Made by a program: the position numbers and the translations under genes. Source: Leptodontidium sp. MPI-SDFR-AT-0119 (Eukaryota > Ascomycota > Leotiomycetes > Helotiales > Leptodontidiaceae). Taken from it: DNA of 64,000 nucleotides. The first letter of the stretch is position 1. Every line of letters starts with the position of its first letter. Shown here one piece after another: positions 20,629 to 62,200 of the stretch. The DNA lies in NCBI GenBank assembly GCA_020726505.1, contig JAHLEZ010000001.1, forward strand, positions 434,001-498,000, in the 5' to 3' direction. A model generated the notes under the pieces. That model saw only the letters and a program-made list of their open reading frames with translations, did not search any database and was not told where the DNA came from.

Positions 20629-20903
20629 TGTTGGTATCTAACCAAGGTCCGATACCTGATATCAGGGTGACAAAGAATATAACAAGTGAAGTTTGATCAA
20701 GTATATTCCGTGTGTCCCTTTCGTACGAAAGGGAAAGCTACCTTAAATACATCAAGTACTAAACCCCGTAGCTCGTATAAGCATTACTCGTACGAAACCA
20801 GGAGGCAAGGTATGAAACCAAGCTTCATCTCGGCCAGGAGAGACGACTATCTTTGGAAGCTGTCAGAGTAAGAGAATGCCCCTCAGCTAAGGCTATCCCA
20901 ACA
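20629..20903 (-). repeat. 3' LTR of copia copy A
   Basis: 275 bp, TGTTGG...CCAACA. Contains an 18-bp perfect palindrome CCCTTTCGTACGAAAGGG at 20716-20733 and a second TCGTACGA near 20788. A 61-codon open frame inside the LTR has no ATG start and is not taken as a gene. Confidence 0.95.
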
Positions 20904-21528
20904 CTGGCAACTCTTCTTTTGTCAGAAGAAAAACTCTCCTACCTTCCTTCTTTCTCCTCTGTACGAAGTGCGCGCAACCTAGCGCATTATCCCCAGCTCC
21001 TCTTCTTCCTTCGTACGAAGCACGTGCTCCATGTGACTTCGGCTCGCTATGTTGAATAGTGACCGCTTTGGGAAGGAACGACTTCGTTCCTTCCTCGTAC
21101 GTCTCTCGCCAGCTGGCTGCTAGCCTTTTCCACGCACAAAAGAGATTTTCTGAATTCCCTCTTCTCTTCTTCTTCTCTTCTTCTTCAACCAACAGCAACA
21201 ACAGCAGCAGCAACAGTAAGTCCCCTTTCTCTTCTTCGTACAGCTCTCCTCCTCCTCAGATATTCTCTGTACGACCTGAGATAGCCTCGTACGAATCGGC
21301 GCCTCTCTTTTCCGCCTTGCCTGCAAGGTAATCTGATTCGTTGTCGCTGTGTACTAACGAAAGGTCTTCCGTAGGCCACAACACCACCACCACCACCACC
21401 ACAACCAGGTGAGTACTCTCCCTCGTACGAAGTCTACCCCCTCGAGACTAGCTTCGCACAGCTGCTGCAACCTTAGTGAGGTGGTACTAACGCCTGCGTA
21501 GCCACACCACACCACACCACACCACACA

Positions 21529-22164
21529 ATGTTAGTCTTTTTCTCTTCATACGAGCTGGCCCTTATCCCCAGGATATAGCTTCTCGTACGAACCTCCGGT
21601 CCTTTTGTCTAAGAACTAACATCGTATAGGGCCCTTGTTCTCTTCAACGCCGTCAATGCCGCGCTGGCTGCTGCCAACGCCAACGCCCATCCCATGCTCA
21701 TTATCGGCGGGCAGCAGCTGGGCCCGTTGTGTCATAATGCGTTGCAACAAACAGTCTTGGCCATGCCAGGACGTGATGTCGCCTTCGTACAAGGGCGCAT
21801 CACACCCCAGCAGCTTATGACACATCGGCCTTCGTACGTCAATGCCCTCTTGATTCAATCGAGAGGTGTTGTCCGAGCTGTTCCTTGTGCTGAATGTTCC
21901 CGGCGTGGCTTAACGCCTTTCCCTGACTGTGCTTCGGTTCAAGGTCATTTCGGGGATAGCTGTGGTAACTGCAAGTGGCGAGATCATGCCGCTCGTTGTA
22001 ATCCCCCTCCTGAGGACTCATCGTCCGAAGACGGAGGTTCAGGAAACGAGAGTGACGAAGTTCAAGTGGTTGCTGTGCGGAGGGCACCACAGGGACTCAT
22101 TGCTGGACCTGTACGAAGGGGCTTGATAGAAGATGGGTCCAGAGATGCTCCGATTGTCTTGTAA
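21529..22164 (+). CDS. Antisense spliced accessory gene of copia copy A: small Cys-rich protein, DUF3716-like
   Basis: On the strand opposite to the polyprotein, between its 3' end and the 3' LTR. The main exon is 21630-22164, opened by an ACTAAC branch (21615-21620) and TATAG acceptor. The preceding exon ends AAT|GTTAGT at 21530, so splicing joins AT to G and creates the start codon; the product is then 178 residues beginning MALVLFNAVNAALAAANANA. Further upstream small exons (21375-21408 and one ending about 21330) have equally good ACTAAC branches and donors; they could be leader, or add a His-rich N-terminal extension. The core holds six cysteines spaced CX2C-X10-C-X10-CX2C-X8-C (PCAEC ... 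SCGNC ... ARC), resembling the fungal DUF3716 zinc-ribbon-like domain, then an acidic Ser/Glu-rich stretch. Function unknown; nucleic-acid or protein binding is inference. Confidence 0.6.
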
Positions 22165-22534
22165 CTTCGTACGTATCTTTTGTGTTCCCTTTTGTTTGCA
22201 AGCACAATTCCTTCTCACAGCCAAGCTTCTGGGCATCGTACGGAGGCTCCCTTCAAGTGAATGGACTCAAGCTCATCTTCAACCTTTGCGCGGTGCTTGG
22301 GATAAGTACTTCGTACAGGAGCCTGTACGAAGGAAACCAATGGAGATTTCCCTTAATCGATTCGTTGTTGGATTATCGTTGGACAGTTGGTCGTTAGGTA
22401 GTCGATCGTCGTATTAGATATTATTTGTTTGGTCGAGAAATGCATAACCATCGTTTCGTACGGTATTCAAATGAGTGACTGAAATGAAATGAAAAACACG
22501 CATTTGACAAATGAAATCATCGTATCGTACGATG

Positions 22535-25500
22535 TTATTCCTCCCCTGGCTCTACTTTCTTTTCCCTCTTAACCCATCCTTCTACTCGTACTACAATCTG
22601 ATTATTATCAATCAGCTTTTCCAAGCTTTTGTTCGGGTTTGACTTCGTCATCGCATCCGCCGGGTTGTCTTGACCATTGATCCATCGGATTTCTGCAAGT
22701 TCTCGTCGTTCGTACGATTGACGCAAAGCCATGATATCGATCATTAGCCGCTTCTCTTTCGTAGTGCCAAGCTTCACGAGGCATTCGTACAGCGAGAACG
22801 AGTCTGTACAAACAACGATTGGGATCGCTGGTATCTCAAGCCGCGACGTGATAATATCGATCGTACTCTTCACCGCGATTGCCATATCAACCCCGTTAAC
22901 CATACCGTAAATCTCGGAAGCTAAGACACTTCGTGTTACTCGTTTGCTCTTCGTACTACTCCAATGAAATAGATTTCCAGAAAGAAGAAACGAGTCTTGA
23001 TCGTTCGAATCGGGGTCGTCGTCCTCCGTGCCGAGAATCATTACGTATCCAAGCTGGGAACTTAAGTCCTTGTTATTCGCAAAGGATCCGTCGACAAAAA
23101 CAAATAACTTCGTACGATGTAAGTCCAAAGGAATATAGTTTAATCCTCGTCCGATGTTTTGAATCTGCCACTGAATGCGCTTATTCAAGTTCTTTACGTC
23201 GGTATCCTCTGGTTCTTGGAATTGAGCCGCAACTGATAGGTCGTACGAAGCTTCAGGTTGGCATAAAGTTGCGATATATGCCCCTCGAGCCCGTTGTTCC
23301 CGATACTGGTTCGTACGGTCCGGTGCTCTTAAGTCAACTTCAGCTAACTTCTCGCCTTGCCCTTTCTGAAGGATTTGGACGAAGTCCTTTCGATCATGCA
23401 CGATACATCCGTTGAACGCGAGGGGTGATTCGTACGATAAACGATCCTTCGGTTTTGCAGAGAAACCGGCAATCCCGAGTTCTTTCTCCTCCTTCTCTTG
23501 GAACTCGTTAGTAGCCAAGATCAGGGTATCGTCCGTTTGCATTCCAACTACTCCAAACGGCATTCCTGGTTGAGTAATCAGAAGGCATGGATCGTACGAA
23601 GACGTTTCCATATGCAACTTGACCTTATGATGTGTGTCGTACGTCCCCCACCAGTGTGTTCCTGATTCCGGGATACCGTATAATGGCTTTCGTACGAGCA
23701 TGATTGTATCCGGCGAGTAGTTGCTGGCAATTTGCTTTGGCAGTCTCGCATAGATCGTACGATTCAGAAAAGTTGTCGACTGGACATACGCCTGAGTAAT
23801 ATCCCGAATAAAGATCGATAACCCTTTTCGTACGAGTGACGGATAGAGTGCCAGAATTAGTCGCTGACTGATCCGTTGAATCGTCGGAGACTGAGTGAGG
23901 ATCTGTTCCTTTCCCGCGTCATTATACGCTTGGATCACGAGTCTGGATTTCTCGTACGGAGCTTCAGTTGTCTTCCCTTTGATTTCATTAACAAGCCGGG
24001 AATTAAAGATCCGTCCGCGATGTTGCCTTGGGTCGTATCGTACGAACTCAAATACGCCTCGAGCAATCAAGCTATCAATCTCCTTTTGTTGAGATTCTTC
24101 AAATGGAAGACCAGGGCTGGTGATCTTCCCTGCTGCTCGCATCGTACGAGATAGGTCTAAGTCGGATTGTTCTTTCCGAGTCAGGAAAACTTCTGGTGAT
24201 CGTACAAGTCCCTTCTCGAGTTCCTGCTTTGTCTTAAACGGAATCAAGACAACTGGCCGTACTGAAGGAGACACCTGGTCTGATCGTACACGGTCCTCCG
24301 GGGCCTCGGCGATTTCTTCCGTGTAAAACGGCTTAACCACCGTCGTACGAAAGGAAGTCGGTCCTGAAGGCAATTGAACAACACACTCTTTCCCCGTGAC
24401 CGATAATAACGAAAACGGGCCTGTCCATCCCTTTTTCTCCCGCCATACTTTCACTGAAGATTGTAATGGAAGTCGTACGGTCTCGGTAATATCAGGGCCG
24501 TTCCTTATACTCTGAGCATCTTTGATCTTTCGTACGGCTTGAATCTTTCGCAATTCCGTCATTGCTATCCGAACTGCCCTTGCTCTAGTAAGCATATCCG
24601 CAGATGGTGGGTCTTCGTACGAAAGTCTAGGATATGCTCCGAAAACTAGAAGTGTTGGAATCAGTCCGTTTGGACCAGCCGTATCGTTCACGGCTTTCAC
24701 GGCCATTTGAAGGACTACTTCTTTTGCCAGGTTTTCGCTTCTCGTCTCGTCCCAGATGATCTCGTACGATCGGCGTAAAGGGGCGTGATACCGCTCAACC
24801 TTCCCGACACTCTGATGTGCCTCGACTGGGACTTCCTTTACATCGACGTTCATCGTACGAGCATTTGCTCTGAATTCTGATGATGCGAAGTTCGTCCCGG
24901 CATCGTGTACGAAGTAATCCGGGGGTCCAAGGTAAGTATCGATCCAACACGTACGAAGCGTAATCCACGTTGTCTTCGCTGAATTATCCTTTAGGAATCG
25001 AGCGGCATTAAAGCCGGTTGCCTCGTCAACTGCTTGAAGGACTGCTGCTCCTGAAAGATATAAAATATCCACGATTACAGAGAAATTGAATTCGATATCG
25101 TCTTTTAAAGAGAATCTGAATCGACCTGGGTTCTTCGTATGAAGCTGACACTGTTCGCAGAACTTTGAGATCTTCTCAATCGTACGAAGGTTTGTTTCCT
25201 CGTGTCCTGCTCGCTGAAGAACGCGGTACAGTTTCTCAACTGAAGGATGTCCAAAGCGTCGATGGAGTTGCCTAAGCTCTGTTTCCGTGAAGTGCTGGTA
25301 CATGAACGTGTCTTTCATCGTATGAATCATCATCCATGGATGTCCCCATTTTCGTACGATCGGAATTCTCTTATCCCCTTGAATCATAATATTCTGAAGG
25401 TTGTCTAATCGTACACCGAGGGAGTCCATATCTTGAATACATAACAGGAACGGGGTATTTGTCGGAACAATCCAGAACCTCACTTGCCCGATGGGTGTTC

Positions 25501-27670
25501 GTACGAGTATCGATCCCTCTGATTCTGCTACTCCTTTGCCAAATCGAATCGTATGCGTTTGGCTGCTCGTACGATCAACTTCTAGCGACGGGTCAAGCTT
25601 CAGAAGTGCTTGGACTTGTTGCTTTCCTGCGGTAGAGATTCCGGCAGCACCGCTGTCTGGCATAATCCCTTGGAAGACTTCGGACGAATATCTGTCTCCA
25701 ATGACGAATACCTCGCCTTCGTACGAATGCTTCGTCGGGTCTCGTTGCAAAAAGGCGTGTTTTGTCGATTCGTCGTTTAGAACTTGGATCATTTGTCGTC
25801 CGTCGACTTCCCCGTACTCCGTAAAGAATCCTTCTGGCTCATCTTCGTCCTTCCATTCCTCTGTATCCTCTGGCACTTCTTTTATTGTCGTACAATCAAA
25901 TTCCCTTGGGAAATCTTCGTACGAGCTTAAGAAAGCCTGAGTTGCTTCCTCGGATCCATTGAACTCGGTCATTAGGTGATTCTTGACCTTCGCCCACGCG
26001 GCTTTCTGCTCTGCCTCCGGATGATCTGTTGACCAGCAACCTTCCTTCTTACAAACAATACATTTCCTATTCGTACGATCATTAGAAGGGTTCCTTGGAC
26101 GAAAAGTCCTCTTCTGGAACTGGTTTGGTGCTGTGCGATCCGGAAATCGTCGTGCCTTCCCGTAGAATTGTCTCTCTACTAAGTTGTGATCATGATCGTA
26201 CGAACGATTCTGTAGGTAAGTGCCAACCTCCCTCGTTCGTACGGCTGTAGCAATTGCAGACCGTAAGTCTGCGCATAGCCCTTCAAATGTCTGTGCAGGC
26301 TTATATAGTGCTAGACTACACTCTTCTACTCCACGACATGCGTTTAGCACTTGATCGCGAAGATTATGCTCTGTCTGGTATTCCCTTGATAGGCCGCGTT
26401 GCGCCGTACGAAGAGAATCAAACATAATTTCCAAGCATTCTAACCGAGACTTCTCTGGGTTCTTTGCAATCGTAGAGATTAATGTAGTCTCTCTCCACTC
26501 AGACAAGTACTTTTGCTGATTCTCCTCAGTCTCAAAGTGATTCCGGGTCATACGAATCATTGTAGGGAAATCGTACGAACGTCCTGCAATCTTGTCGTAA
26601 TAGAAATCCGCTGCTCGTCCTTTTAGCATAATCGAGAATGCTAGGTGGTACTGGTCACTTGAGATTCCGATCTTCGTACAACAGTCGAAGAAGACCTGGA
26701 GACGAATATCTAGGATATCGTACTGCTCTCCGCCGTACTTCCGGCTCTCATTGCTATAAACCTTCATTAGGTCCGTTAACAACCGTGAGTTCGGGATGAT
26801 TGTCCGAGACTCATACGATACGGTCGGTTCCGGCGGAGGAGCTCTCGGGGTCGGTGGATCATCTTCGTACGAATGTTGTCTCAGTGGTCGTTCGACGGTT
26901 TCGTAGGCTTGGTCCCGACTTGGAAGGTTGTTGTCTAAGGCCGGATGTGGCGTAGGACTGAAACGTTCGTACGCTGGGTAGCGTTGTTTGGCTGTTTGAC
27001 CTCTGTCTGGTGATAAAGACTTTGCCAGATTTGCGTACGAAGTCCGGTCAGAACTAACCGTGTTCTCGTTCAAAACGACATGGGGCGGAGGACTCAGATA
27101 TTGTCCAGACGTTTGAGGCTGTCGCTGAGTTGTTTGAATTGGCTCTGAGAGTGGGTCCTCTGCCTCTTGAGTTCGTACGATTGGAGAATCTCTGGAATTG
27201 TCCGAAATAGCGTGTCTCGCTGGTGGTTCGCTTTGTACAGTTGAAGTCGGAGTACCTTGCCGGTTTCTGTCTTGCCCTTGGGATTTCCATTGGGCATAAG
27301 TCCTTCGATTTTGATCTGTCCACTCATGTGGTTCTTCCTCTTCCAAAACATCTGCCAACGTTTGAGCGTACGAGATAGACCCCCTTTGCTCTCGTACCCA
27401 TACTCCGTGATCAAGGAGGTATGTACGAAGATCCTTAACAGCTTCCCGGGATCCGATAGCAAAAGTATCTTCCGTCCATCCTTCGAAGCCTTCCTTGAAT
27501 TCTTCCCAAAGTCCGTAGTCCCAAAACTCTTTTTGGCGGTATCGTACGAGGGCCAAGGTAATGTGGTTATTGACTCGCTTAAGCGTTTGATGCTCGTCGT
27601 TCGCAAGGTCAAAGGGTTCCCCCCATGCTTCCGTATCCAATGGGTAGGTGACCTCTGGTGGTGGAATCAT
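22535..27670 (-). CDS. Copia Gag-Pol polyprotein, copy A
   Basis: One frame of 1,711 residues from ATG 27670; the frame is open 13 codons further upstream but without ATG. Order: Gag (about 1-520), zinc knuckle C537-X2-C-X4-C-X4-H, protease with DSGA (D672), GAG-preintegrase HRRFGHPS...CEQC, integrase with D868, D923 and E959 (35 residues between the last two, the DDE pattern), RVT_2 reverse transcriptase with QTDD (D1380/D1381) in place of the usual YVDD, and RNase H with FVDGSFA (D1527). The order integrase before reverse transcriptase defines Ty1/copia. No frameshift or stop separates gag from pol. The frame contains about 40 copies of the CGTACG core in all three codon phases, giving recurrent SYE/SYD, VR and RT pairs. 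Confidence 0.95.
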   Translation of the reverse strand: MIPPPEVTYPLDTEAWGEPFDLANDEHQTLKRVNNHITLALVRYRQKEFWDYGLWEEFKEGFEGWTEDTFAIGSREAVKDLRTYLLDHGVWVREQRGSISYAQTLADVLEEEEPHEWTDQNRRTYAQWKSQGQDRNRQGTPTSTVQSEPPARHAISDNSRDSPIVRTQEAEDPLSEPIQTTQRQPQTSGQYLSPPPHVVLNENTVSSDRTSYANLAKSLSPDRGQTAKQRYPAYERFSPTPHPALDNNLPSRDQAYETVERPLRQHSYEDDPPTPRAPPPEPTVSYESRTIIPNSRLLTDLMKVYSNESRKYGGEQYDILDIRLQVFFDCCTKIGISSDQYHLAFSIMLKGRAADFYYDKIAGRSYDFPTMIRMTRNHFETEENQQKYLSEWRETTLISTIAKNPEKSRLECLEIMFDSLRTAQRGLSREYQTEHNLRDQVLNACRGVEECSLALYKPAQTFEGLCADLRSAIATAVRTREVGTYLQNRSYDHDHNLVERQFYGKARRFPDRTAPNQFQKRTFRPRNPSNDRTNRKCIVCKKEGCWSTDHPEAEQKAAWAKVKNHLMTEFNGSEEATQAFLSSYEDFPREFDCTTIKEVPEDTEEWKDEDEPEGFFTEYGEVDGRQMIQVLNDESTKHAFLQRDPTKHSYEGEVFVIGDRYSSEVFQGIMPDSGAAGISTAGKQQVQALLKLDPSLEVDRTSSQTHTIRFGKGVAESEGSILVRTPIGQVRFWIVPTNTPFLLCIQDMDSLGVRLDNLQNIMIQGDKRIPIVRKWGHPWMMIHTMKDTFMYQHFTETELRQLHRRFGHPSVEKLYRVLQRAGHEETNLRTIEKISKFCEQCQLHTKNPGRFRFSLKDDIEFNFSVIVDILYLSGAAVLQAVDEATGFNAARFLKDNSAKTTWITLRTCWIDTYLGPPDYFVHDAGTNFASSEFRANARTMNVDVKEVPVEAHQSVGKVERYHAPLRRSYEIIWDETRSENLAKEVVLQMAVKAVNDTAGPNGLIPTLLVFGAYPRLSYEDPPSADMLTRARAVRIAMTELRKIQAVRKIKDAQSIRNGPDITETVRLPLQSSVKVWREKKGWTGPFSLLSVTGKECVVQLPSGPTSFRTTVVKPFYTEEIAEAPEDRVRSDQVSPSVRPVVLIPFKTKQELEKGLVRSPEVFLTRKEQSDLDLSRTMRAAGKITSPGLPFEESQQKEIDSLIARGVFEFVRYDPRQHRGRIFNSRLVNEIKGKTTEAPYEKSRLVIQAYNDAGKEQILTQSPTIQRISQRLILALYPSLVRKGLSIFIRDITQAYVQSTTFLNRTIYARLPKQIASNYSPDTIMLVRKPLYGIPESGTHWWGTYDTHHKVKLHMETSSYDPCLLITQPGMPFGVVGMQTDDTLILATNEFQEKEEKELGIAGFSAKPKDRLSYESPLAFNGCIVHDRKDFVQILQKGQGEKLAEVDLRAPDRTNQYREQRARGAYIATLCQPEASYDLSVAAQFQEPEDTDVKNLNKRIQWQIQNIGRGLNYIPLDLHRTKLFVFVDGSFANNKDLSSQLGYVMILGTEDDDPDSNDQDSFLLSGNLFHWSSTKSKRVTRSVLASEIYGMVNGVDMAIAVKSTIDIITSRLEIPAIPIVVCTDSFSLYECLVKLGTTKEKRLMIDIMALRQSYERRELAEIRWINGQDNPADAMTKSNPNKSLEKLIDNNQIVVRVEGWVKREKKVEPGEE

Positions 27671-27752
27671 CGTGTCCTTCTTCGTACGAAGGTTAATGAA
27701 AATTGTCAAGTCGTGTTTGCGTTCCGTGAATCCTCAGATCGTACGAATCGTC

Positions 27753-27891
27753 TTCTTCTGCTAGTCGCCGACGCAGGGTCCGATCAGTTTGCCTCTCCGG
27801 TCTGTCTTTTCCGATTGTCGTCTTCTTCTGCTAGTCGCCGACGCAGGGTCTGATCAGTTTGCCTCTCCGGTCTGTCTTTCCGATTGTCGTC
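27753..27891 (-). repeat. Two-unit tandem repeat in the 5' leader of copia copy A
   Basis: Two units of 70 and 69 bp between the 5' LTR and the polyprotein start, differing by one inserted A and one substitution by my reading. Mirror of 29553-29691 in copy B. Confidence 0.85.
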
Positions 27892-27940
27892 GTACAAAAG
27901 TATTGCCTAACTGTTCTGTGGTTATTTAACCACTGATCAG

Positions 27941-28215
27941 TGTTGGTATCTAACCAAGGTCCGATACCTGATATCAGGGTGACAAAGAATATAACAAGTG
28001 AAGTTTGATCAAGTATATTCCGTGTGTCCCTTTCGTACGAAAGGGAAAGCTACCTTAAATACATCAAGTACTAAACCCCGTAGCTCGTATAAGCATTACT
28101 CGTACGAAACCAGGAGGCAAGGTATGAAACCAAGCTTCATCTCGGCCAGGAGAGACGACTATCTTTGGAAGCTGTCAGAGTAAGAGAATGCCCCTCAGCT
28201 AAGGCTATCCCAACA
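27941..28215 (-). repeat. 5' LTR of copia copy A
   Basis: 275 bp, same ends and internal palindrome (28028-28045) as the 3' LTR. Directly inside it lies a short inverted repeat (GTGGTTA-AA-TAACCAC in the sense direction) where a primer-binding site would be expected; I could not assign a primer tRNA. Confidence 0.95.
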
Positions 28216-29228
28216 GATATACCCGTCTAGCCGTACTTTAACTAGCGAGTCTTCGTCGACATTAACTGTTTTGACAAGCTAATCGTTAAGTCTCACTAGC
28301 TCGATGCGGAACGAAGGGATACTCTTATAGACATAAATGACTACCGCCGGAGGCAAGCTAGGCTCGCGGCGCTTAACGATTCCCCTAAGACAAAGGTCTC
28401 TATACGACTTACCGCTAGCGTCTCGCTGACTCGACCCTCGAGCTTTACTAAAGAGGTTAAGGAGCGCCTACGTGTTATAAAAGATTAATTAAACCTTCTG
28501 ACATCCCGTAATCCGGGATTACTACTCAGGGACGGGAAAGCCCGTGGAGCCTCCCTAGCGAATTACTAGCCAAAGGCGCTTACTATAGAGATTTTCCTTA
28601 TATTAGTAGTAGTAATGTTTACGACGTACTTCTGACTTAGGAAATCTAGAAGGAATAAAGTAAAAACCTTCGTGACATTAGTATATAAGATCAACTAAGA
28701 GCTGACTTGTCGCCGGCGAGAGGCCTTAGACTAGTTAAGCGTCGAGCTCGCATTGATGAATAGAGACCTGACCTTAAAGGAGGCCTTAGAGGCTAAGTAC
28801 GCGTAAGATAACGAGTTAATAAGTAAGAAGCTCCCGGCGGAGTATTAAGAGTATACCCCCCTCTTCTCCTGGCGAGCTTCTGATAAGTTACTAGAGTATC
28901 GCTAGGGCGTAGACTACTAAATCGAGCTTACTAGAGAGAACGACTTGTCCTTTAAACCTCTCTAGCGTATGACTAAAGAATAACTGTTAGAGACTAAGCG
29001 GTATATTATTGACAACTTATATAAAGGTTTTATTAAGCCCTTTAGCGCACTATATATGGCCCTTATCCTCTTCGCTAAAAAAGCCGACGGCAATCTCCAG
29101 CTATACGTCGACTACCGGAAGTTAAATGCCCTGTCGAAGAAGGACCCGTACCCGATTCCACTAATCGATAAGATAATAGCACGCATCTATAAGGCAAAAG
29201 TCTTTATAAAGCTCGATATTTAATAAGC
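28216..29228 (+). pseudogene. Degraded gypsy protease/reverse-transcriptase segment between the two copia copies
   Basis: Plus-strand gypsy pol sequence with many stops. The start of the reverse transcriptase is recognisable at about 29070-29170 as VDYRKLNALSKKDPYPIP, preceded by the LILFAKKADGNLQL block. The right end reads KLDI just before copia copy B interrupts it; the sequence resumes at 36816. Confidence 0.85.
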
Positions 29229-29503
29229 TGTTGGGATAGCCTTAGCTGAGGGGCATTCTCTTACTCTGACAGCTTCCAAAGATAGTCGTCTCTCCTGGCC
29301 GAGATGAAGCTTGGTTTCATACCTTGCCTCCTGGTTTCGTACGAGTAATGCTTATACGAGCTACGGGGTTTAGTACTTGATGTATTTAAGGTAGCTTTCC
29401 CTTTCGTACGAAAGGGACACACGGAATATACTTGATCAAACTTCACTTGTTATATTCTTTGTCACCCTGATATCAGGTATCGGACCTTGGTTAGATACCA
29501 ACA
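29229..29503 (+). repeat. 5' LTR of copia copy B
   Basis: 275 bp, TGTTGGGATAGCC...GATACCAACA, with the 18-bp palindrome at 29399-29416. By my reading identical to the other three copia LTRs. Confidence 0.95.
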
Positions 29504-29552
29504 CTGATCAGTGGTTAAATAACCACAGAACAGTTAGGCAATACTTTTGTAC

Positions 29553-29691
29553 GACGACAATCGGAAAGACAGACCGGAGAGGCAAACTGATCAGACCCTG
29601 CGTCGGCGACTAGCAGAAGAAGACGACAATCGGAAAAGACAGACCGGAGAGGCAAACTGATCGGACCCTGCGTCGGCGACTAGCAGAAGAA
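29553..29691 (+). repeat. Two-unit tandem repeat in the 5' leader of copia copy B
   Basis: Units 29553-29621 and 29622-29691, each starting GACGACAATCGGAAA and ending CTAGCAGAAGAA. They lie between the LTR and the polyprotein, where packaging or dimerisation signals often sit; that role is only inferred. Confidence 0.85.
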
Positions 29692-29773
29692 GACGATTCG
29701 TACGATCTGAGGATTCACGGAACGCAAACACGACTTGACAATTTTCATTAACCTTCGTACGAAGAAGGACACG

Positions 29774-32700
29774 ATGATTCCACCACCAGAGGTCACCTAC
29801 CCATTGGATACGGAAGCATGGGGGGAACCCTTTGACCTTGCGAACGACGAGCATCAAACGCTTAAGCGAGTCAATAACCACATTACCTTGGCCCTCGTAC
29901 GATACCGCCAAAAAGAGTTTTGGGACTACGGACTTTGGGAAGAATTCAAGGAAGGCTTCGAAGGATGGACGGAAGATACTTTTGCTATCGGATCCCGGGA
30001 AGCTGTTAAGGATCTTCGTACATACCTCCTTGATCACGGAGTATGGGTACGAGAGCAAAGGGGGTCTATCTCGTACGCTCAAACGTTGGCAGATGTTTTG
30101 GAAGAGGAAGAACCACATGAGTGGACAGATCAAAATCGAAGGACTTATGCCCAATGGAAATCCCAAGGGCAAGACAGAAACCGGCAAGGTACTCCGACTT
30201 CAACTGTACAAAGCGAACCACCAGCGAGACACGCTATTTCGGACAATTCCAGAGATTCTCCAATCGTACGAACTCAAGAGGCAGAGGACCCACTCTCAGA
30301 GCCAATTCAAACAACTCAGCGACAGCCTCAAACGTCTGGACAATATCTGAGTCCTCCGCCCCATGTCGTTTTGAACGAGAACACGGTTAGTTCTGACCGG
30401 ACTTCGTACGCAAATCTGGCAAAGTCTTTATCACCAGACAGAGGTCAAACAGCCAAACAACGCTACCCAGCGTACGAACGTTTCAGTCCTACGCCACATC
30501 CGGCCTTAGACAACAACCTTCCAAGTCGGGACCAAGCCTACGAAACCGTCGAACGACCACTGAGACAACATTCGTACGAAGATGATCCACCGACCCCGAG
30601 AGCTCCTCCGCCGGAACCGACCGTATCGTATGAGTCTCGGACAATCATCCCGAACTCACGGTTGTTAACGGACCTAATGAAGGTTTATAGCAATGAGAGC
30701 CGGAAGTACGGCGGAGAGCAGTACGATATCCTAGATATTCGTCTCCAGGTCTTCTTCGACTGTTGTACGAAGATCGGAATCTCAAGTGACCAGTACCACC
30801 TAGCATTCTCGATTATGCTAAAAGGACGAGCAGCGGATTTCTATTACGACAAGATTGCAGGACGTTCGTACGATTTCCCTACAATGATTCGTATGACCCG
30901 GAATCACTTTGAGACTGAGGAGAATCAGCAAAAGTACTTGTCTGAGTGGAGAGAGACTACATTAATCTCTACGATTGCAAAGAACCCAGAGAAGTCTCGG
31001 TTAGAATGCTTGGAAATTATGTTTGATTCTCTTCGTACGGCGCAACGCGGCCTATCAAGGGAATACCAGACAGAGCATAATCTTCGCGATCAAGTGCTAA
31101 ACGCATGTCGTGGAGTAGAAGAGTGTAGTCTAGCACTATATAAGCCTGCACAGACATTTGAAGGGCTATGCGCAGACTTACGGTCTGCAATTGCTACAGC
31201 CGTACGAACGAGGGAGGTTGGCACTTACCTACAGAATCGTTCGTACGATCATGATCACAACTTAGTAGAGAGACAATTCTACGGGAAGGCACGACGATTT
31301 CCGGATCGCACAGCACCAAACCAGTTCCAGAAGAGGACTTTTCGTCCAAGGAACCCTTCTAATGATCGTACGAATAGGAAATGTATTGTTTGTAAGAAGG
31401 AAGGTTGCTGGTCAACAGATCATCCGGAGGCAGAGCAGAAAGCCGCGTGGGCGAAGGTCAAGAATCACCTAATGACCGAGTTCAATGGATCCGAGGAAGC
31501 AACTCAGGCTTTCTTAAGCTCGTACGAAGATTTCCCAAGGGAATTTGATTGTACGACAATAAAAGAAGTGCCAGAGGATACAGAGGAATGGAAGGACGAA
31601 GATGAGCCAGAAGGATTCTTTACGGAGTACGGGGAAGTCGACGGACGACAAATGATCCAAGTTCTAAACGACGAATCGACAAAACACGCCTTTTTGCAAC
31701 GAGACCCGACGAAGCATTCGTACGAAGGCGAGGTATTCGTCATTGGAGACAGATATTCGTCCGAAGTCTTCCAAGGGATTATGCCAGACAGCGGTGCTGC
31801 CGGAATCTCTACCGCAGGAAAGCAACAAGTCCAAGCACTTCTGAAGCTTGACCCGTCGCTAGAAGTTGATCGTACGAGCAGCCAAACGCATACGATTCGA
31901 TTTGGCAAAGGAGTAGCAGAATCAGAGGGATCGATACTCGTACGAACACCCATCGGGCAAGTGAGGTTCTGGATTGTTCCGACAAATACCCCGTTCCTGT
32001 TATGTATTCAAGATATGGACTCCCTCGGTGTACGATTAGACAACCTTCAGAATATTATGATTCAAGGGGATAAGAGAATTCCGATCGTACGAAAATGGGG
32101 ACATCCATGGATGATGATTCATACGATGAAAGACACGTTCATGTACCAGCACTTCACGGAAACAGAGCTTAGGCAACTCCATCGACGCTTTGGACATCCT
32201 TCAGTTGAGAAACTGTACCGCGTTCTTCAGCGAGCAGGACACGAGGAAACAAACCTTCGTACGATTGAGAAGATCTCAAAGTTCTGCGAACAGTGTCAGC
32301 TTCATACGAAGAACCCAGGTCGATTCAGATTCTCTTTAAAAGACGATATCGAATTCAATTTCTCTGTAATCGTGGATATTTTATATCTTTCAGGAGCAGC
32401 AGTCCTTCAAGCAGTTGACGAGGCAACCGGCTTTAATGCCGCTCGATTCCTAAAGGATAATTCAGCGAAGACAACGTGGATTACGCTTCGTACGTGTTGG
32501 ATCGATACTTACCTTGGACCCCCGGATTACTTCGTACACGATGCCGGGACGAACTTCGCATCATCAGAATTCAGAGCAAATGCTCGTACGATGAACGTCG
32601 ATGTAAAGGAAGTCCCAGTCGAGGCACATCAGAGTGTCGGGAAGGTTGAGCGGTATCACGCCCCTTTACGCCGATCGTACGAGATCATCTGGGACGAGAC

Positions 32701-34909
32701 GAGAAGCGAAAACCTGGCAAAAGAAGTAGTCCTTCAAATGGCCGTGAAAGCCGTGAACGATACGGCTGGTCCAAACGGACTGATTCCAACACTTCTAGTT
32801 TTCGGAGCATATCCTAGACTTTCGTACGAAGACCCACCATCTGCGGATATGCTTACTAGAGCAAGGGCAGTTCGGATAGCAATGACGGAATTGCGAAAGA
32901 TTCAAGCCGTACGAAAGATCAAAGATGCTCAGAGTATAAGGAACGGCCCTGATATTACCGAGACCGTACGACTTCCATTACAATCTTCAGTGAAAGTATG
33001 GCGGGAGAAAAAGGGATGGACAGGCCCGTTTTCGTTATTATCGGTCACGGGGAAAGAGTGTGTTGTTCAATTGCCTTCAGGACCGACTTCCTTTCGTACG
33101 ACGGTGGTTAAGCCGTTTTACACGGAAGAAATCGCCGAGGCCCCGGAGGACCGTGTACGATCAGACCAGGTGTCTCCTTCAGTACGGCCAGTTGTCTTGA
33201 TTCCGTTTAAGACAAAGCAGGAACTCGAGAAGGGACTTGTACGATCACCAGAAGTTTTCCTGACTCGGAAAGAACAATCCGACTTAGACCTATCTCGTAC
33301 GATGCGAGCAGCAGGGAAGATCACCAGCCCTGGTCTTCCATTTGAAGAATCTCAACAAAAGGAGATTGATAGCTTGATTGCTCGAGGCGTATTTGAGTTC
33401 GTACGATACGACCCAAGGCAACATCGCGGACGGATCTTTAATTCCCGGCTTGTTAATGAAATCAAAGGGAAGACAACTGAAGCTCCGTACGAGAAATCCA
33501 GACTCGTGATCCAAGCGTATAATGACGCGGGAAAGGAACAGATCCTCACTCAGTCTCCGACGATTCAACGGATCAGTCAGCGACTAATTCTGGCACTCTA
33601 TCCGTCACTCGTACGAAAAGGGTTATCGATCTTTATTCGGGATATTACTCAGGCGTATGTCCAGTCGACAACTTTTCTGAATCGTACGATCTATGCGAGA
33701 CTGCCAAAGCAAATTGCCAGCAACTACTCGCCGGATACAATCATGCTCGTACGAAAGCCATTATACGGTATCCCGGAATCAGGAACACACTGGTGGGGGA
33801 CGTACGACACACATCATAAGGTCAAGTTGCATATGGAAACGTCTTCGTACGATCCATGCCTTCTGATTACTCAACCAGGAATGCCGTTTGGAGTAGTTGG
33901 AATGCAAACGGACGATACCCTGATCTTGGCTACTAACGAGTTCCAAGAGAAGGAGGAGAAAGAACTCGGGATTGCCGGTTTCTCTGCAAAACCGAAGGAT
34001 CGTTTATCGTACGAATCACCCCTCGCGTTCAACGGATGTATCGTGCATGATCGAAAGGACTTCGTCCAAATCCTTCAGAAAGGGCAAGGCGAGAAGTTAG
34101 CTGAAGTTGACTTAAGAGCACCGGACCGTACGAACCAGTATCGGGAACAACGGGCTCGAGGGGCATATATCGCAACTTTATGCCAACCTGAAGCTTCGTA
34201 CGACCTATCAGTTGCGGCTCAATTCCAAGAACCAGAGGATACCGACGTAAAGAACTTGAATAAGCGCATTCAGTGGCAGATTCAAAACATCGGACGAGGA
34301 TTAAACTATATTCCTTTGGACTTACATCGTACGAAGTTATTTGTTTTTGTCGACGGATCCTTTGCGAATAACAAGGACTTAAGTTCCCAGCTTGGATACG
34401 TAATGATTCTCGGCACGGAGGACGACGACCCCGATTCGAACGATCAAGACTCGTTTCTTCTTTCTGGAAATCTATTTCATTGGAGTAGTACGAAGAGCAA
34501 ACGAGTAACACGAAGTGTCTTAGCTTCCGAGATTTACGGTATGGTTAACGGGGTTGATATGGCAATCGCGGTGAAGAGTACGATCGATATTATCACGTCG
34601 CGGCTTGAGATACCAGCGATCCCAATCGTTGTTTGTACAGACTCGTTCTCGCTGTACGAATGCCTCGTGAAGCTTGGCACTACGAAAGAGAAGCGGCTAA
34701 TGATCGATATCATGGCTTTGCGTCAATCGTACGAACGACGAGAACTTGCAGAAATCCGATGGATCAATGGTCAAGACAACCCGGCGGATGCGATGACGAA
34801 GTCAAACCCGAACAAAAGCTTGGAAAAGCTGATTGATAATAATCAGATTGTAGTACGAGTAGAAGGATGGGTTAAGAGGGAAAAGAAAGTAGAGCCAGGG
34901 GAGGAATAA
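29774..34909 (+). CDS. Copia Gag-Pol polyprotein, copy B
   Basis: Identical in translation to copy A: 1,711 residues, with intact zinc knuckle, DSGA protease, DDE integrase, QTDD reverse transcriptase and RNase H. ATG 29774 is chosen because the 13 in-frame codons upstream contain no ATG. Identity of two independent insertions implies very recent transposition, or unusually strong conservation. All catalytic residues I can check are present, so the element may be autonomous. Confidence 0.95.
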   Translation: MIPPPEVTYPLDTEAWGEPFDLANDEHQTLKRVNNHITLALVRYRQKEFWDYGLWEEFKEGFEGWTEDTFAIGSREAVKDLRTYLLDHGVWVREQRGSISYAQTLADVLEEEEPHEWTDQNRRTYAQWKSQGQDRNRQGTPTSTVQSEPPARHAISDNSRDSPIVRTQEAEDPLSEPIQTTQRQPQTSGQYLSPPPHVVLNENTVSSDRTSYANLAKSLSPDRGQTAKQRYPAYERFSPTPHPALDNNLPSRDQAYETVERPLRQHSYEDDPPTPRAPPPEPTVSYESRTIIPNSRLLTDLMKVYSNESRKYGGEQYDILDIRLQVFFDCCTKIGISSDQYHLAFSIMLKGRAADFYYDKIAGRSYDFPTMIRMTRNHFETEENQQKYLSEWRETTLISTIAKNPEKSRLECLEIMFDSLRTAQRGLSREYQTEHNLRDQVLNACRGVEECSLALYKPAQTFEGLCADLRSAIATAVRTREVGTYLQNRSYDHDHNLVERQFYGKARRFPDRTAPNQFQKRTFRPRNPSNDRTNRKCIVCKKEGCWSTDHPEAEQKAAWAKVKNHLMTEFNGSEEATQAFLSSYEDFPREFDCTTIKEVPEDTEEWKDEDEPEGFFTEYGEVDGRQMIQVLNDESTKHAFLQRDPTKHSYEGEVFVIGDRYSSEVFQGIMPDSGAAGISTAGKQQVQALLKLDPSLEVDRTSSQTHTIRFGKGVAESEGSILVRTPIGQVRFWIVPTNTPFLLCIQDMDSLGVRLDNLQNIMIQGDKRIPIVRKWGHPWMMIHTMKDTFMYQHFTETELRQLHRRFGHPSVEKLYRVLQRAGHEETNLRTIEKISKFCEQCQLHTKNPGRFRFSLKDDIEFNFSVIVDILYLSGAAVLQAVDEATGFNAARFLKDNSAKTTWITLRTCWIDTYLGPPDYFVHDAGTNFASSEFRANARTMNVDVKEVPVEAHQSVGKVERYHAPLRRSYEIIWDETRSENLAKEVVLQMAVKAVNDTAGPNGLIPTLLVFGAYPRLSYEDPPSADMLTRARAVRIAMTELRKIQAVRKIKDAQSIRNGPDITETVRLPLQSSVKVWREKKGWTGPFSLLSVTGKECVVQLPSGPTSFRTTVVKPFYTEEIAEAPEDRVRSDQVSPSVRPVVLIPFKTKQELEKGLVRSPEVFLTRKEQSDLDLSRTMRAAGKITSPGLPFEESQQKEIDSLIARGVFEFVRYDPRQHRGRIFNSRLVNEIKGKTTEAPYEKSRLVIQAYNDAGKEQILTQSPTIQRISQRLILALYPSLVRKGLSIFIRDITQAYVQSTTFLNRTIYARLPKQIASNYSPDTIMLVRKPLYGIPESGTHWWGTYDTHHKVKLHMETSSYDPCLLITQPGMPFGVVGMQTDDTLILATNEFQEKEEKELGIAGFSAKPKDRLSYESPLAFNGCIVHDRKDFVQILQKGQGEKLAEVDLRAPDRTNQYREQRARGAYIATLCQPEASYDLSVAAQFQEPEDTDVKNLNKRIQWQIQNIGRGLNYIPLDLHRTKLFVFVDGSFANNKDLSSQLGYVMILGTEDDDPDSNDQDSFLLSGNLFHWSSTKSKRVTRSVLASEIYGMVNGVDMAIAVKSTIDIITSRLEIPAIPIVVCTDSFSLYECLVKLGTTKEKRLMIDIMALRQSYERRELAEIRWINGQDNPADAMTKSNPNKSLEKLIDNNQIVVRVEGWVKREKKVEPGEE

Positions 34910-35279
34910 CATCGTACGATACGATGATTTCATTTGTCAAATGCGTGTTTTTCATTTCATTTCAGTCACTCATTTGAATACCGTACGAAACGATGGTTAT
35001 GCATTTCTCGACCAAACAAATAATATCTAATACGACGATCGACTACCTAACGACCAACTGTCCAACGATAATCCAACAACGAATCGATTAAGGGAAATCT
35101 CCATTGGTTTCCTTCGTACAGGCTCCTGTACGAAGTACTTATCCCAAGCACCGCGCAAAGGTTGAAGATGAGCTTGAGTCCATTCACTTGAAGGGAGCCT
35201 CCGTACGATGCCCAGAAGCTTGGCTGTGAGAAGGAATTGTGCTTGCAAACAAAAGGGAACACAAAAGATACGTACGAAG

Positions 35280-35915
35280 TTACAAGACAATCGGAGCATC
35301 TCTGGACCCATCTTCTATCAAGCCCCTTCGTACAGGTCCAGCAATGAGTCCCTGTGGTGCCCTCCGCACAGCAACCACTTGAACTTCGTCACTCTCGTTT
35401 CCTGAACCTCCGTCTTCGGACGATGAGTCCTCAGGAGGGGGATTACAACGAGCGGCATGATCTCGCCACTTGCAGTTACCACAGCTATCCCCGAAATGAC
35501 CTTGAACCGAAGCACAGTCAGGGAAAGGCGTTAAGCCACGCCGGGAACATTCAGCACAAGGAACAGCTCGGACAACACCTCTCGATTGAATCAAGAGGGC
35601 ATTGACGTACGAAGGCCGATGTGTCATAAGCTGCTGGGGTGTGATGCGCCCTTGTACGAAGGCGACATCACGTCCTGGCATGGCCAAGACTGTTTGTTGC
35701 AACGCATTATGACACAACGGGCCCAGCTGCTGCCCGCCGATAATGAGCATGGGATGGGCGTTGGCGTTGGCAGCAGCCAGCGCGGCATTGACGGCGTTGA
35801 AGAGAACAAGGGCCCTATACGATGTTAGTTCTTAGACAAAAGGACCGGAGGTTCGTACGAGAAGCTATATCCTGGGGATAAGGGCCAGCTCGTATGAAGA
35901 GAAAAAGACTAACAT
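35280..35915 (-). CDS. Antisense spliced accessory gene of copia copy B: small Cys-rich protein, DUF3716-like
   Basis: Mirror image of the copy A gene. Main exon 35814-35280; the two bases AT at 35915-35914 from the preceding exon (35942-35914) join G at 35814 to make ATG. Product 178 residues with the same six-cysteine pattern CX2C-X10-C-X10-CX2C-X8-C and an acidic segment. Conservation of exon, branch point and frame in both copies adds nothing independent because the copies are identical; support comes from the three ACTAAC-type branch points and the domain-like cysteine spacing. Confidence 0.6.
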
Positions 35916-36540
35916 TGTGTGGTGTGGTGTGGTGTGGTGTGGCTACGCAGGCGTTAGTACCACCTCACTAAGGTTGCAGCAGCTGTGCGAAGCTAGTCTC
36001 GAGGGGGTAGACTTCGTACGAGGGAGAGTACTCACCTGGTTGTGGTGGTGGTGGTGGTGGTGTTGTGGCCTACGGAAGACCTTTCGTTAGTACACAGCGA
36101 CAACGAATCAGATTACCTTGCAGGCAAGGCGGAAAAGAGAGGCGCCGATTCGTACGAGGCTATCTCAGGTCGTACAGAGAATATCTGAGGAGGAGGAGAG
36201 CTGTACGAAGAAGAGAAAGGGGACTTACTGTTGCTGCTGCTGTTGTTGCTGTTGGTTGAAGAAGAAGAGAAGAAGAAGAGAAGAGGGAATTCAGAAAATC
36301 TCTTTTGTGCGTGGAAAAGGCTAGCAGCCAGCTGGCGAGAGACGTACGAGGAAGGAACGAAGTCGTTCCTTCCCAAAGCGGTCACTATTCAACATAGCGA
36401 GCCGAAGTCACATGGAGCACGTGCTTCGTACGAAGGAAGAAGAGGAGCTGGGGATAATGCGCTAGGTTGCGCGCACTTCGTACAGAGGAGAAAGAAGGAA
36501 GGTAGGAGAGTTTTTCTTCTGACAAAAGAAGAGTTGCCAG

Positions 36541-36815
36541 TGTTGGGATAGCCTTAGCTGAGGGGCATTCTCTTACTCTGACAGCTTCCAAAGATAGTCG
36601 TCTCTCCTGGCCGAGATGAAGCTTGGTTTCATACCTTGCCTCCTGGTTTCGTACGAGTAATGCTTATACGAGCTACGGGGTTTAGTACTTGATGTATTTA
36701 AGGTAGCTTTCCCTTTCGTACGAAAGGGACACACGGAATATACTTGATCAAACTTCACTTGTTATATTCTTTGTCACCCTGATATCAGGTATCGGACCTT
36801 GGTTAGATACCAACA
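36541..36815 (+). repeat. 3' LTR of copia copy B
   Basis: 275 bp with the palindrome at 36711-36728. The upstream flank is purine-rich (about 36487-36510) but no polypurine tract directly abuts the LTR. Confidence 0.95.
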
Positions 36816-48093: not shown

Positions 48094-49095
48094 TCACTCA
48101 TCTTCATCATCTTCTTCTATTGGTATGCCTTGGTAGCCAGAATGACGAAAATGCCCCCTTGCTCTACGCTCAGCTTCAGCACCAACACCTACAGAGCGTA
48201 CAGCTAATATTAGGAAATCCTCGAATTCTTCCCAGGTATGCTCACTCCAACGCCAGTGCCTTCGAATCCACGCCTTTAAATCTGCGAAGCTCTCTTCGAT
48301 AGGGTTAAAAAAGGGGCAATATGGAGGGAGATACTCCAATTGAAGACCGAATGTTGCGCAAAGTATAGGAATTCGAGGATTAGTGTGGATTGAGGCGTTA
48401 TCCATAATAATAATCTCGATTCCTTGCTCAATACACTCAGGTAAGATACTCTTTTCTAACCATTCCTCAAAGATCTCTGCTGTAATCGAGCCTTGGTAGA
48501 TCAATGGTTGATGATAACCACGAAGTGAGTACGCCGGAAGAATTGACCACCTTCTTGATCGCTTTAATACACGTTGTATTTCAGCTGGCGCACCTCTAGG
48601 AGCCCATCCGCGACGCCTATCCGTTGTTCTCTCATTACAGGCAGATTCGTCGATAACACAAATCTTCCGGGCATCCCAAAATACCATCTTTCGCCTCCAA
48701 GCCGCAATTAATTCGTCGTTTCTTTGCGCCGCAGATACTTTGAGTACTTTCTTGGTGTATTTGAGCCTTTGGAGAGCTTTGGAGACTTGATTTGCTGACA
48801 CGTCGACGTCGTAGGCCTCATACAAATACAACGCAAGCTCGTCTTGATACAAATCAGGCTCTCTTTCAAGCAACGACACCATATATTCAGCCATATCGTC
48901 GGTAATAACAGGTGGAGGGCCATGGCGACGACGATTTGAAGGTGATATTTGGCTCTTCAGCTTTCGATTCCGCTGGCATATCGTCTTATATGTTGTTTGG
49001 AACTCTTTGGCTAACGCTCGTAGATCAATATCGACCCCATTAGTCAATATTTGATCAATTCTAGCTGCTTTCCAAGCTGGCAGATTCGGAGCCAT
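48094..49095 (-). CDS. DDE transposase, Tc1/mariner superfamily (DDE_3)
   Basis: 333 residues from ATG 49095. The N-terminal half is a helix-turn-helix DNA-binding region (MAPNLPAWKAARIDQILTNG, then RRRHGPPPVITDDMAEYMVS). The catalytic triad is visible as VIDESACNE, IIMDNASIHTN and PFFNPIEESFADLKAWIRRH, the DD34E-like pattern of Tc1/mariner enzymes. The C-terminus ends in a short acidic tail. The frame extends upstream past ATG 49095 through the inverted repeat, but that part is repeat sequence. No disruptive mutation is seen, so the enzyme may be active. Confidence 0.93.
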   Translation of the reverse strand: MAPNLPAWKAARIDQILTNGVDIDLRALAKEFQTTYKTICQRNRKLKSQISPSNRRRHGPPPVITDDMAEYMVSLLEREPDLYQDELALYLYEAYDVDVSANQVSKALQRLKYTKKVLKVSAAQRNDELIAAWRRKMVFWDARKICVIDESACNERTTDRRRGWAPRGAPAEIQRVLKRSRRWSILPAYSLRGYHQPLIYQGSITAEIFEEWLEKSILPECIEQGIEIIIMDNASIHTNPRIPILCATFGLQLEYLPPYCPFFNPIEESFADLKAWIRRHWRWSEHTWEEFEDFLILAVRSVGVGAEAERRARGHFRHSGYQGIPIEEDDEDE

Positions 49096-49139
49096 GACGT
49101 CACGTTGTTCGCAGATACACAGTCGATTCGTCAGATCAA

Positions 49140-49306
49140 GAGCTTCAAAATGATCCAATTTGGAGGCAAATCGATGGAGGAATGGTGGAGTTCTAAAGGT
49201 TCTAAATATTATAATTTTCAAACATCCTGTTTTGGTGGGGTCTACAGCAAAAGTCGGTGAATCGGCGTTACTAACCGAAGAATCACTCCGATCCGAAGAT
49301 TGGCTG
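49140..49306 (-). repeat. Right terminal inverted repeat of the Tc1/mariner-type element
   Basis: Reverse complement of the left repeat, about ten bases longer through an inner AT-rich difference. Ends 45 bp before the transposase ATG. Confidence 0.9.
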
Positions 49307-49677
49307 TAATGTTTATATTGACATGTGCCTGCTCCCTTCACCTCAGGTCGGAGCACGCGGACCGAGACGGTGGACGTGGGGAAACCAAGATTCCACCGCA
49401 CCATCCATCTGCACTGCACTGCACTGCACCATACCATCCCTGCCATCTGCCTCTTCCCTTCTTCCCAGTGCGCCAACCACCGAACTTATGGCGACAACTC
49501 ATGTCTTGAATTAAAGTTGGGAAACCGTCGCTTTCTTGTATTCTTTTTTGTTTTCTGCCATGTGCTCTATTCTTCCGTGATCCGAGGAATCCTCCAATAG
49601 ATCATATCGCCTCTTGATACCTACCCGTCTCCGTCTGACCTTCACGGTCATCGATCCCCCGCATTCAACACACGACC

Positions 49678-60263: not shown

Positions 60264-62200
60264 GATGATCCTTAGCCGCAGTGAGAAGATGTAATGACCA
60301 CTGTTAGATTCATACTGCTTGGTGGCCGCAATGACTAGATCGCAATAAGGATGATATTTGATGGGTCGAGATTGAAGTGAATGTCCCAATGTTGTTGTTG
60401 GTGAGGCTGAGGTGCGTCGGGTTAGGCAGCACTTTTTGAACAGGGGAGGGTGCCTTCCCCTCACTCCATTGGCCAGCGGAACAAGCGATCCTGTTCATGA
60501 AAAGCGAAGCTCATTTCCATGAGTTGCTTTCTGAAGCATCTACGAAGTATAAAGCTCCACAGGATTGCATAGCTTCATTCGCGTCGCATTTTCGCCACTG
60601 ACTTGCCACTGTTTTCATTTGCTTAATTAGGCGTGGCCCGAAAGTCAAAAAAAGAATAGGGTGATAGTGAGCTTGTAGATTCGCAGAGAAATGTGGGATG
60701 TTCTTTGGACGAGATATGGCCTCTCTATCTCTTTAGCCAGACTCTAGCAATTTCGTCTGAAAGGGAGGGGCGAGACCCGGACAGACGAACAATCTGCACC
60801 CCTTGGTGAGGACCATAATTCTTAGTTACCACTTGAACTTCCCCAAACGCGACGCATCCACCAAAAAATACAAAAACCTCTGCCCGTCATCGTTATCCTG
60901 ATGTTGTTTTAGTGTCTCATTCTTCATGATGCGTGTCTCGGTCTTCGCCCAGCTGAGGTACACATGAGGCTTTTTGTTTCGAAATGCTCCTCCCATCCCC
61001 AAAGTTGTATTCAGGGACATGGGACTTTCGATTCCAGCCCGCACTCGCCGCCCGGGGGGATCGCTACGGCAATATGACCCCAAAGCCGTGATACATCCTG
61101 TACCTGGCCAATTTCGAGTTGTTTAGACGGCAACATCTATGTCTCACCACCACTTGTCATGACAGCTTCCCCCGCGAGAGGAGCATGGCGTTAAAACGGG
61201 GAAGGGAATCCGGCGCCCCGGGGGCGAGAGGTGCAGTCTCTCGCCCCATGTTGGTCAAAACATGGCCCAAAAATAGCGATTGCAGCCCGCCGAACATAGA
61301 TGACAAGTGCAGTGGGGGTTGACGCCCGATGACCCCTGAGCGAAAATTCCGATAGCTGTGGCGTTGTAAGAGATCTGCGTGCCTGCTGAAGGGTATTTCG
61401 ACTTTGGACCATCGGTGAGGACTGTTGGTGTGAAGAGTTGAGTAAGAAAGCGGGCGGAATGGGCGTGGGATGGAAGGGCAACCGCAAGGCAGATTTTGCG
61501 TTCTGCTGTCATCGAAGTGCTGCTGAGAATTGATATTTTAGTACTCGAGTACAACTTATTTTACCGGAAGGGGACTGGCCCTTGGAGGTCTGTAAAATCA
61601 AGGCTATCTAGCGCTCTGTTGTCCTGTCATGAGAGCCCCTCGAATGAACTTCCCGAAAGAGCGAGCTGCATAAGTCAGAGGATGTTAGGTAAGTTCTGAA
61701 CTGGAGCATGCCACACTTTCTCCGCTTCTTTTCATGACGTCTAACACTTAGGGGGCTTTCGATGATGACATCGTTCAAACGCCATGATATAGGTCGAGAA
61801 CCATTCGCCGCAGAAGAGAGATCTTGCAATCTTTAAGTATATCTAGCATAGCCTGAATCAAAGCTGTATTTTACGTAGACGGGCTTCTGCAGTCTGTAGA
61901 GAACTTGTCTAAATACCAAAGCTATTGGCCGAGACATAATCTGCGCTTAGGAAAGTCAATAGAAATGAATTCACAACTCATTGTAAGAGCACCAAAGCCT
62001 AGCTAGCTACAAAAAGCTTAGCCGGAAACGCAGCTCAAAAAGATACATAATTTAGAGCTGACTCTTGACTAAACGAAGGGGGACGATCACCAAGACAACC
62101 ACATGAAATCCCATACAGCAAGACCCCTCCATTCCCGCCTTTTGCTGTTCAAGTGGCAAACAAATCGTCTACTGATCTCCGTCAAAATTGAATTAAAGCA
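60264..62200. other. Gene-poor interval between the HET gene and the AT-rich relic
   Basis: Holds the HET promoter on the left. Open frames around 61.1-61.6 kb (up to 99 codons on the minus strand) have Cys/His-rich but unrecognised sequence, and no splice signals make a larger gene. Further right the sequence becomes mixed in composition. Confidence 0.4.

Follow-up and report, generated by a model that had tools for sequence, protein, structure and literature searches.

The closest described system comes from Arabidopsis, where VANC proteins exert sequence-specific anti-silencing on VANDAL transposons, with motif density deciding the targets and tandem repeats spreading the motif (PMC5735166, PMC10398659, available portions). 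Further likenesses are offered by RNA viruses, in which one recognition element recurs in many copies along a genome that also codes (PMC6281560, available portion), and by the cyp51 promoter repeats of Pseudocercospora fijiensis, a fungal repeated element with the very octamer treated here as its palindromic core, which differs in being a low-copy insertion in a host promoter (PMC6797121, available portion). Fungal DNA transposons have been reported to encode TET/JBP enzymes (PMC12730594, available portion). Here we analyse a copia element at positions 20629..28215 of a 64,000-nucleotide stretch of Leptodontidium sp. MPI-SDFR-AT-0119 (the window; contig JAHLEZ010000001.1, positions 434,001 to 498,000), which is strewn with the palindromic octamer TCGTACGA, and we consider it very likely that this octamer is a selected dispersed tag common to autonomous and gene-less elements. 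The DNA uptake sequences of Neisseria and Haemophilus are likewise short words scattered in coding DNA and echoed in proteins; they serve bacterial transformation and have no relation to the copia element. An earlier note on this DNA knew of no retrotransposon with such a signal, and we also found none with a comparable dispersed palindrome in openly licensed full texts. VANDALs already provide a case of a motif in transposons that is served by a factor acting in trans; a palindrome that saturates the coding sequence of a long terminal repeat (LTR) retrotransposon and is held in common with gene-less elements would be a new form of this kind of system.

The element spans 7,587 bp, lies in minus orientation and is flanked on both sides by the 5-bp target duplication GATAT. 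It shows the hallmarks of Ty1/copia, i.e. identical LTRs of 275 bp with TG...CA ends (3' LTR at 20629..20903, 5' LTR at 27941..28215, both on the minus strand), the target duplication, and a copia-type reverse transcriptase (RVT_2, 33.5 bits against the Pfam cut-off of 31.6). The latter sits at residues 1236-1402 of a polyprotein open reading frame (ORF) on the minus strand (22535..27709, the listed start codon TTG being mechanical) and is preceded by integrase-type matches at residues 808-956 that stay under curated cut-offs. A 5' leader (27710..27940, minus strand) precedes the ORF, and a gene on the opposite strand has its coding exon at 21630..22164 (plus strand). Within these boundaries we counted 53 copies of CGTACG (first 20722, last 28101), 37 of TCGTACGA and seven of TTCGTACGAA, which confirms the scattered palindrome of the earlier note; the runner-up palindromic hexamer AAGCTT reaches seven copies and none other exceeds that number. 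The density is about one CGTACG per 140 bp overall, with one per 138 bp in each LTR, per 136 bp in the polyprotein ORF, per 163 bp in the antisense-gene region (20904-22534, ten copies) and per 231 bp in the leader. Both sites in each LTR are perfect octamers, as had been noted. The estimates by eye for the genes were less exact: some 40 full or one-mismatch sites had been claimed for the polyprotein, where the enrichment stood and the number rose to 51, and some 17 for the antisense-gene region, where LTR and region together, scanned in seven sub-regions, gave 15 at zero or one mismatch. Outside this element and its second copy, the remaining 48,826 bp of the window hold only two CGTACG, at 38268 and 56194, exactly where they had been seen, while another 53 belong to a second copy of the element.

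Chance and codon usage account poorly for these numbers. The exact octamer occurs 37 times against a first-order Markov expectation of 0.14 (about 260-fold), one-mismatch forms 33 times against 3.75 (about 9-fold), and two-mismatch forms are hardly raised (40 against 35). Synonymous codon shuffles of the polyprotein ORF (2,000 runs) gave a mean of 6.29 CGTACG (standard deviation 2.28), a mean itself inflated by the codons that the motif uses, and a maximum of 15 against 38 observed, so that the similar counts which would have spoken against a signal did not appear. As the earlier note had stated, the motif falls in all three coding phases of the polyprotein (12, 16 and 10 CGTACG; 27 of the 38 sites there extend to TCGTACGA), and it is also present in the LTRs, in the leader, which has one perfect site, and in the two introns predicted for the antisense gene. 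The coding exon of that gene has one CGTACG, which is among its three one-mismatch sites. The motif unit is a palindrome of 8-10 bp: read on both strands, the base after CGTACG is A in 90 of 106 cases at the first position and in 51 of 106 at the second, with no clear preference beyond. Sites are spaced more evenly than under random placement (coefficient of variation 0.54 against 0.91 for CGTACG, with 0 of 5,000 placements as low); the evenness was not significant when exact octamers alone were considered (P 0.11), and no significant periodicity was seen at helical or nucleosomal phases of 10, 10.5, 11, 147 or 165 bp. One site in each LTR is embedded in a 20-bp perfect palindrome, TCCCTTTCGTACGAAAGGGA (20714-20733 and the equivalent place in the 5' LTR).

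Fungal Ty1/copia relatives are homologous to the polyprotein along most of its extent, and the best 120 of 415 protein matches were examined. As these relatives are represented by proteins, we scored the peptides that the octamer would encode in each of the three phases (SY[ED], [FLIV]VR and RT[IMTNKSR]) as its echo and ranked this echo against those of all 256 palindromic octamers, bearing in mind that a peptide echo does not prove a DNA site. An echo with z > 3, a cut-off picked after the values were seen and at which P0097 (3.2) and P0089 (3.1) are marginal, was found in 16 of 121 proteins including the query, i.e. in 15 of the best 120 relatives. Among these 16, TCGTACGA ranks first in 11 and within the top three in all. 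Fourteen of them fall in a single clade of 15 rows, the exception within it being P0072, while P0068 belongs to a neighbouring clade and P0089 lies far away on the tree; the echo label changes four times on this tree against 15.3 times for shuffled labels. The earlier note had suggested checking whether sites persist in related elements, and they do so only in part: most of the 120 relatives have no echo, and one clade of diverged relatives retains it at aligned as well as unaligned positions.

The positions themselves are fluid. The 15 clade proteins yield 114 site columns, some of them in poorly aligned stretches, and 70 occur in a single protein only. Compared with residue-matched non-site positions, the site residues of the query were less identical in all eight non-motif relatives (P 0.018 or less each). 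Within the motif clade, site-residue identity was as expected in all nine comparisons with the query, and thus higher conservation was not seen there; directed comparisons of close pairs reached p < 0.05 in one of ten. In one pair a codon-based count found changes at none of the 87 codons in sites and at 46 of 1,058 codons elsewhere, though this way of cutting the data is favourable and the pair was not significant in the residue comparison. The single-protein columns together with the residue-matched results indicate that sites are written into the protein and shift position while their number is kept. Judging from these alignments, motif density is maintained in the clade over large divergence despite turnover of positions. 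Close to position 25888, five other copia copies of the host genome (G000; C2:475963, C8:1802894, C27:433379, C34:1769682 and C67:2994688) show the octamer intact, in contrast to the one-mismatch form of the window copies, and the peptide of P0001 differs in keeping with the perfect octamer.

A genome-wide view (77-Mb assembly, 69 contigs) extended the motif to elements without genes. A search for spaced double sites returned 39 places against none for the reversed pattern, and by sequence and position 29 of these belong to an element we call NA1, three to a second one, NA2, six to copia copies and one to none of them. NA1 (L053 2736-4264) measures 1,529 bp with 145-bp LTRs and has 15 CGTACG against 0.48 expected; NA2 (L054 2483-4359) measures 1,877 bp with 204-bp LTRs and has 18 against 0.46, and the fetched flanks of both contain zero CGTACG. 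Six of the ORFs in these elements with at least 100 residues, the longer ones running through repeats, matched no Pfam family above cut-off. Fourteen near-full copies of NA1 were found and at least ten NA2 loci, several of them diverged, among the 40 of 89 candidates scored. The LTRs of NA1 and NA2 gave no BLAST match with each other, and the two elements have 77-78 bp tandem repeats bearing sites in common. The leader of the copia element contains a 75-bp tandem duplication (27748-27891, 97%), and part of this leader, including some of the duplication, recurs in NA2 at 95-96% together with the junction TTGCCAG/TGTTGGGAT, so that NA2 is probably mobilised by the copia element. NA1 has in common with copia only the TTGCCAG ending and the octamer. 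The two gene-less elements seem to travel with the copia element.

The product of the antisense gene matches DUF3716 (PF12511; 53.3 bits against a cut-off of 22), which together with the reading frame defines its coding exon. Upstream lie a predicted intron at 21409..21501 (plus strand; GT...TACTAAC...AG, identified by eye) with one perfect site, and another immediately before the coding exon at 21531..21629 (plus strand) with one perfect and one one-mismatch site, whose removal by splicing would put an ATG ahead of ALVLFNAVNAALAA. Six cysteines are near-invariant among 45 DUF3716 sequences (44 or 45 of 45 at each position) and follow the order C-x2-C ... C ... C-x2-C ... C that characterises Zn2Cys6 domains, and a forced global alignment placed all six in register. 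None of the 45 relatives matched Pfam Zn_clus at E up to 1 among the best 25 matches listed, and the profile probability was 2.6%. The structural model of DUF3716 has a confident core, and Foldseek matched it in the PDB to four chains, every one of them from the DNA-bound Zn2Cys6 activator HAP1; as modelled, the six-cysteine fold would thus weakly resemble a Zn2Cys6 DNA-binding domain. Moreover, the activator domain GCR1_C adjoins DUF3716 in one relative, and the N-terminal stretches of DUF3716 relatives contain the octamer echo 12 times against 1.4 (9 of 28 sequences, rank 2 of 256). A polyprotein relative of 96% and a DUF3716 relative of 99% each lie on a 5,528-bp contig, probably one and the same. 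In the host genome the antisense gene has 54 matches, namely 16 near-identical ones without stops, 36 with stops and two distant ones without stops. Two adjacent DUF3716 ORFs stand at L056 2228-4541, and this host pair is a possible source of the element's gene. No literature on DUF3716, or on CGTACG in connection with Zn2Cys6 proteins, was found in openly licensed full texts.

That selection acts on the nucleic acid and not on the protein, as the earlier note had argued from the three phases, is supported by the codon shuffles, the residue-matched tests and the sites in introns, LTRs and gene-less elements, and a short nucleic-acid signal instead of protein function appears to dictate dozens of polyprotein residues. 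The confinement to one clade, the non-autonomous partners and the match of the antisense product to DUF3716 go beyond that note. We propose that TCGTACGA is kept by such selection and would serve as the label by which a trans-acting factor recognises the copia family together with its non-autonomous partners. The DUF3716 protein from the spliced antisense gene might recognise the palindrome in double-stranded DNA, probably binding as a dimer, and with a CGTACG about every 140 bp could coat the whole element, keeping it and the gene-less site bearers expressed or accessible despite host silencing. We rank DUF3716 first among candidate readers because an extra gene on the opposite strand has been kept, the family resembles DNA-binding proteins in some features and the layout corresponds to that of VANC systems; the binder, its DNA ligand and the effect, be it anti-silencing or activation, are all inferred, and we give a VANC-like role of this protein a little less than an even chance. 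Still more tentatively, the elements may form a consortium with a private DNA address, in which the copia element encodes the antisense zinc-cluster-like protein and writes the octamer into itself evenly and in all frames, while the gene-less elements amplify it via repeats. As in VANDALs, a short motif stands at high density across one transposon family and is rare in other transposons, the element encodes an extra protein, and tandem repeats have spread the motif, the latter here in NA1 and NA2 and not in the copia element itself. VANDALs, as far as the available portions of the reports describe them, are DNA transposons whose 9-bp motif YAGTATTAY is non-palindromic and mainly non-coding, with binding shown, whereas here a palindrome fills all coding frames of a copia retrotransposon (38 of 53 CGTACG inside the polyprotein ORF), gene-less partners take part, and binding is a prediction. 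The difference would be larger still if the reader of the motif were of another kind. If DUF3716 does read the motif, a family without known function would gain a candidate ligand, and element-encoded sequence-specific recognition would exist in fungal LTR retrotransposons and be exploited by gene-less elements, for which amplification of the octamer in tandem repeats would bring the same activation or protection. Such a self-recognition code among fungal mobile elements would also constrain polyprotein evolution.

One observation weighs against a DNA tag read by DUF3716. Shielding of the sites from repeat-induced point mutation (RIP) was looked for and not seen, the sites being slightly more often RIP-mutated; silencing during vegetative growth, though, is a process distinct from RIP. 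Imperfect copia sites retain the sense-strand GTACGA half more often (25:8, p 0.0046), a bias that keeps an RNA-level model alive. Under that model, which we regard as less likely, each of the numerous UCGUACGA repeats in the genomic RNA would contribute weakly to packaging, dimerisation or condensation, being recognised by Gag or through RNA-RNA pairing of the self-complementary palindrome, and gene-less elements would keep the repeats for packaging in trans. Multiple dispersed packaging signals have been described in RNA viruses (PMC6281560, available portion), and the leader and junction common to NA2 and copia make trans-mobilisation likely. Viral signals of this type act in RNA, whereas the palindrome described here is also present in LTRs and tandem repeats. 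By eye, one-mismatch sites show no preference for forms in which G-U pairing is preserved over forms in which it is lost, and the sense bias is not seen in NA1 (4:8 against 5:2 in NA2). The sites in predicted antisense-gene introns might also seem to speak for DNA, but they do not discriminate because genomic RNA contains the introns too.

Instead of the element's own protein, a host DNA-binding factor, either a transcription activator or a chromatin factor, might recognise TCGTACGA, its sites having been gathered by the elements for expression. The genome is rich in zinc-cluster genes (150 scored matches), and the P. fijiensis repeat with this core is correlated with increased expression (PMC6797121, available portion); we nevertheless find such a host factor doubtful. 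A promoter signal is not usually spread through coding sequence as far as an element's distal end, and the octamer excess in the genome (2,223 against 1,186 for the reversed word, i.e. 1,037) is largely attributable to elements, so that general host use is not apparent: 592 come from the 16 near-identical copia copies, and most of the rest plausibly, by estimate, from RIP-mutated copies, NA1 and NA2. Other roles of the nucleic acid, such as cDNA handling, integration, nuclear import or recombination between copies, would fit the even coverage of the whole element, yet no octamer was seen at the insertion point in the flanks of the copia copies inspected, and we consider them improbable. It is hardly credible that no signal is selected at all and the motif arose as a side effect of RIP, codon usage or duplication. 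RIP can convert CGCACG or CGTGCG to CGTACG and is strong in this genome, where the polyprotein search (27 of 451 candidates scored) found 16 near-identical copies (a stop in one of them) and 11 with at least 26 stops, and where 14 aligned stop-bearing loci differ by 329-599 C-to-T/G-to-A changes against 2-21 other differences, with the bias towards CpA that is typical of RIP. The intact element, however, has no RIP signature in its dinucleotides, and mutated copies lose sites, retaining 3-12 of 19; a RIP footprint was rejected as the source. Codon usage and protein constraint fail against the codon shuffles and residue-matched tests, copying of a longer unit within copia is rejected as site flanks are near random past the second base after CGTACG, and the echo at other positions in diverged relatives points the same way.

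Some observations concern other elements. Ten further proteins echo another palindromic octamer at z > 4, the highest being P0029, a polyprotein outside the clade with ATCTAGAT (14 against 2.9, z 6.0), perhaps by chance among about 30,000 tests. A search of viral contigs returned no relative. L037 and L038, copias related to fungal ones, are on contigs filed under metagenome-assembled genomes of Erythrobacter and Gracilibacteria, probably as contamination. L037, a 41% relative available as DNA, has one CGTACG and no comparable dense motif of a different kind (best hexamer z 4.5). An antisense ORF of L037 (6518-6847, minus strand), located where our element has its antisense gene, shows a six-cysteine pattern; neither Pfam nor the profile matched it as a DUF3716 homologue, and a PDB sequence search gave 57 rows, mostly antibody chains, with a best E of 0.32.

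The second copy of the copia element in the window (29229..36815, plus strand) is inverted and 100% identical to the first, with the same 53 sites. Its target duplication, TAAGC, differs from the GATAT of the first copy, which indicates two separate insertions; the two identical copies thus lie in opposite orientation about 1 kb apart (20629-36815). Farther along, the window contains an ORF for a DDE_3 transposase of mariner/Tc1 type (48094-49476, minus strand) and one with a HET (heterokaryon incompatibility) domain (58392-60464, minus strand).

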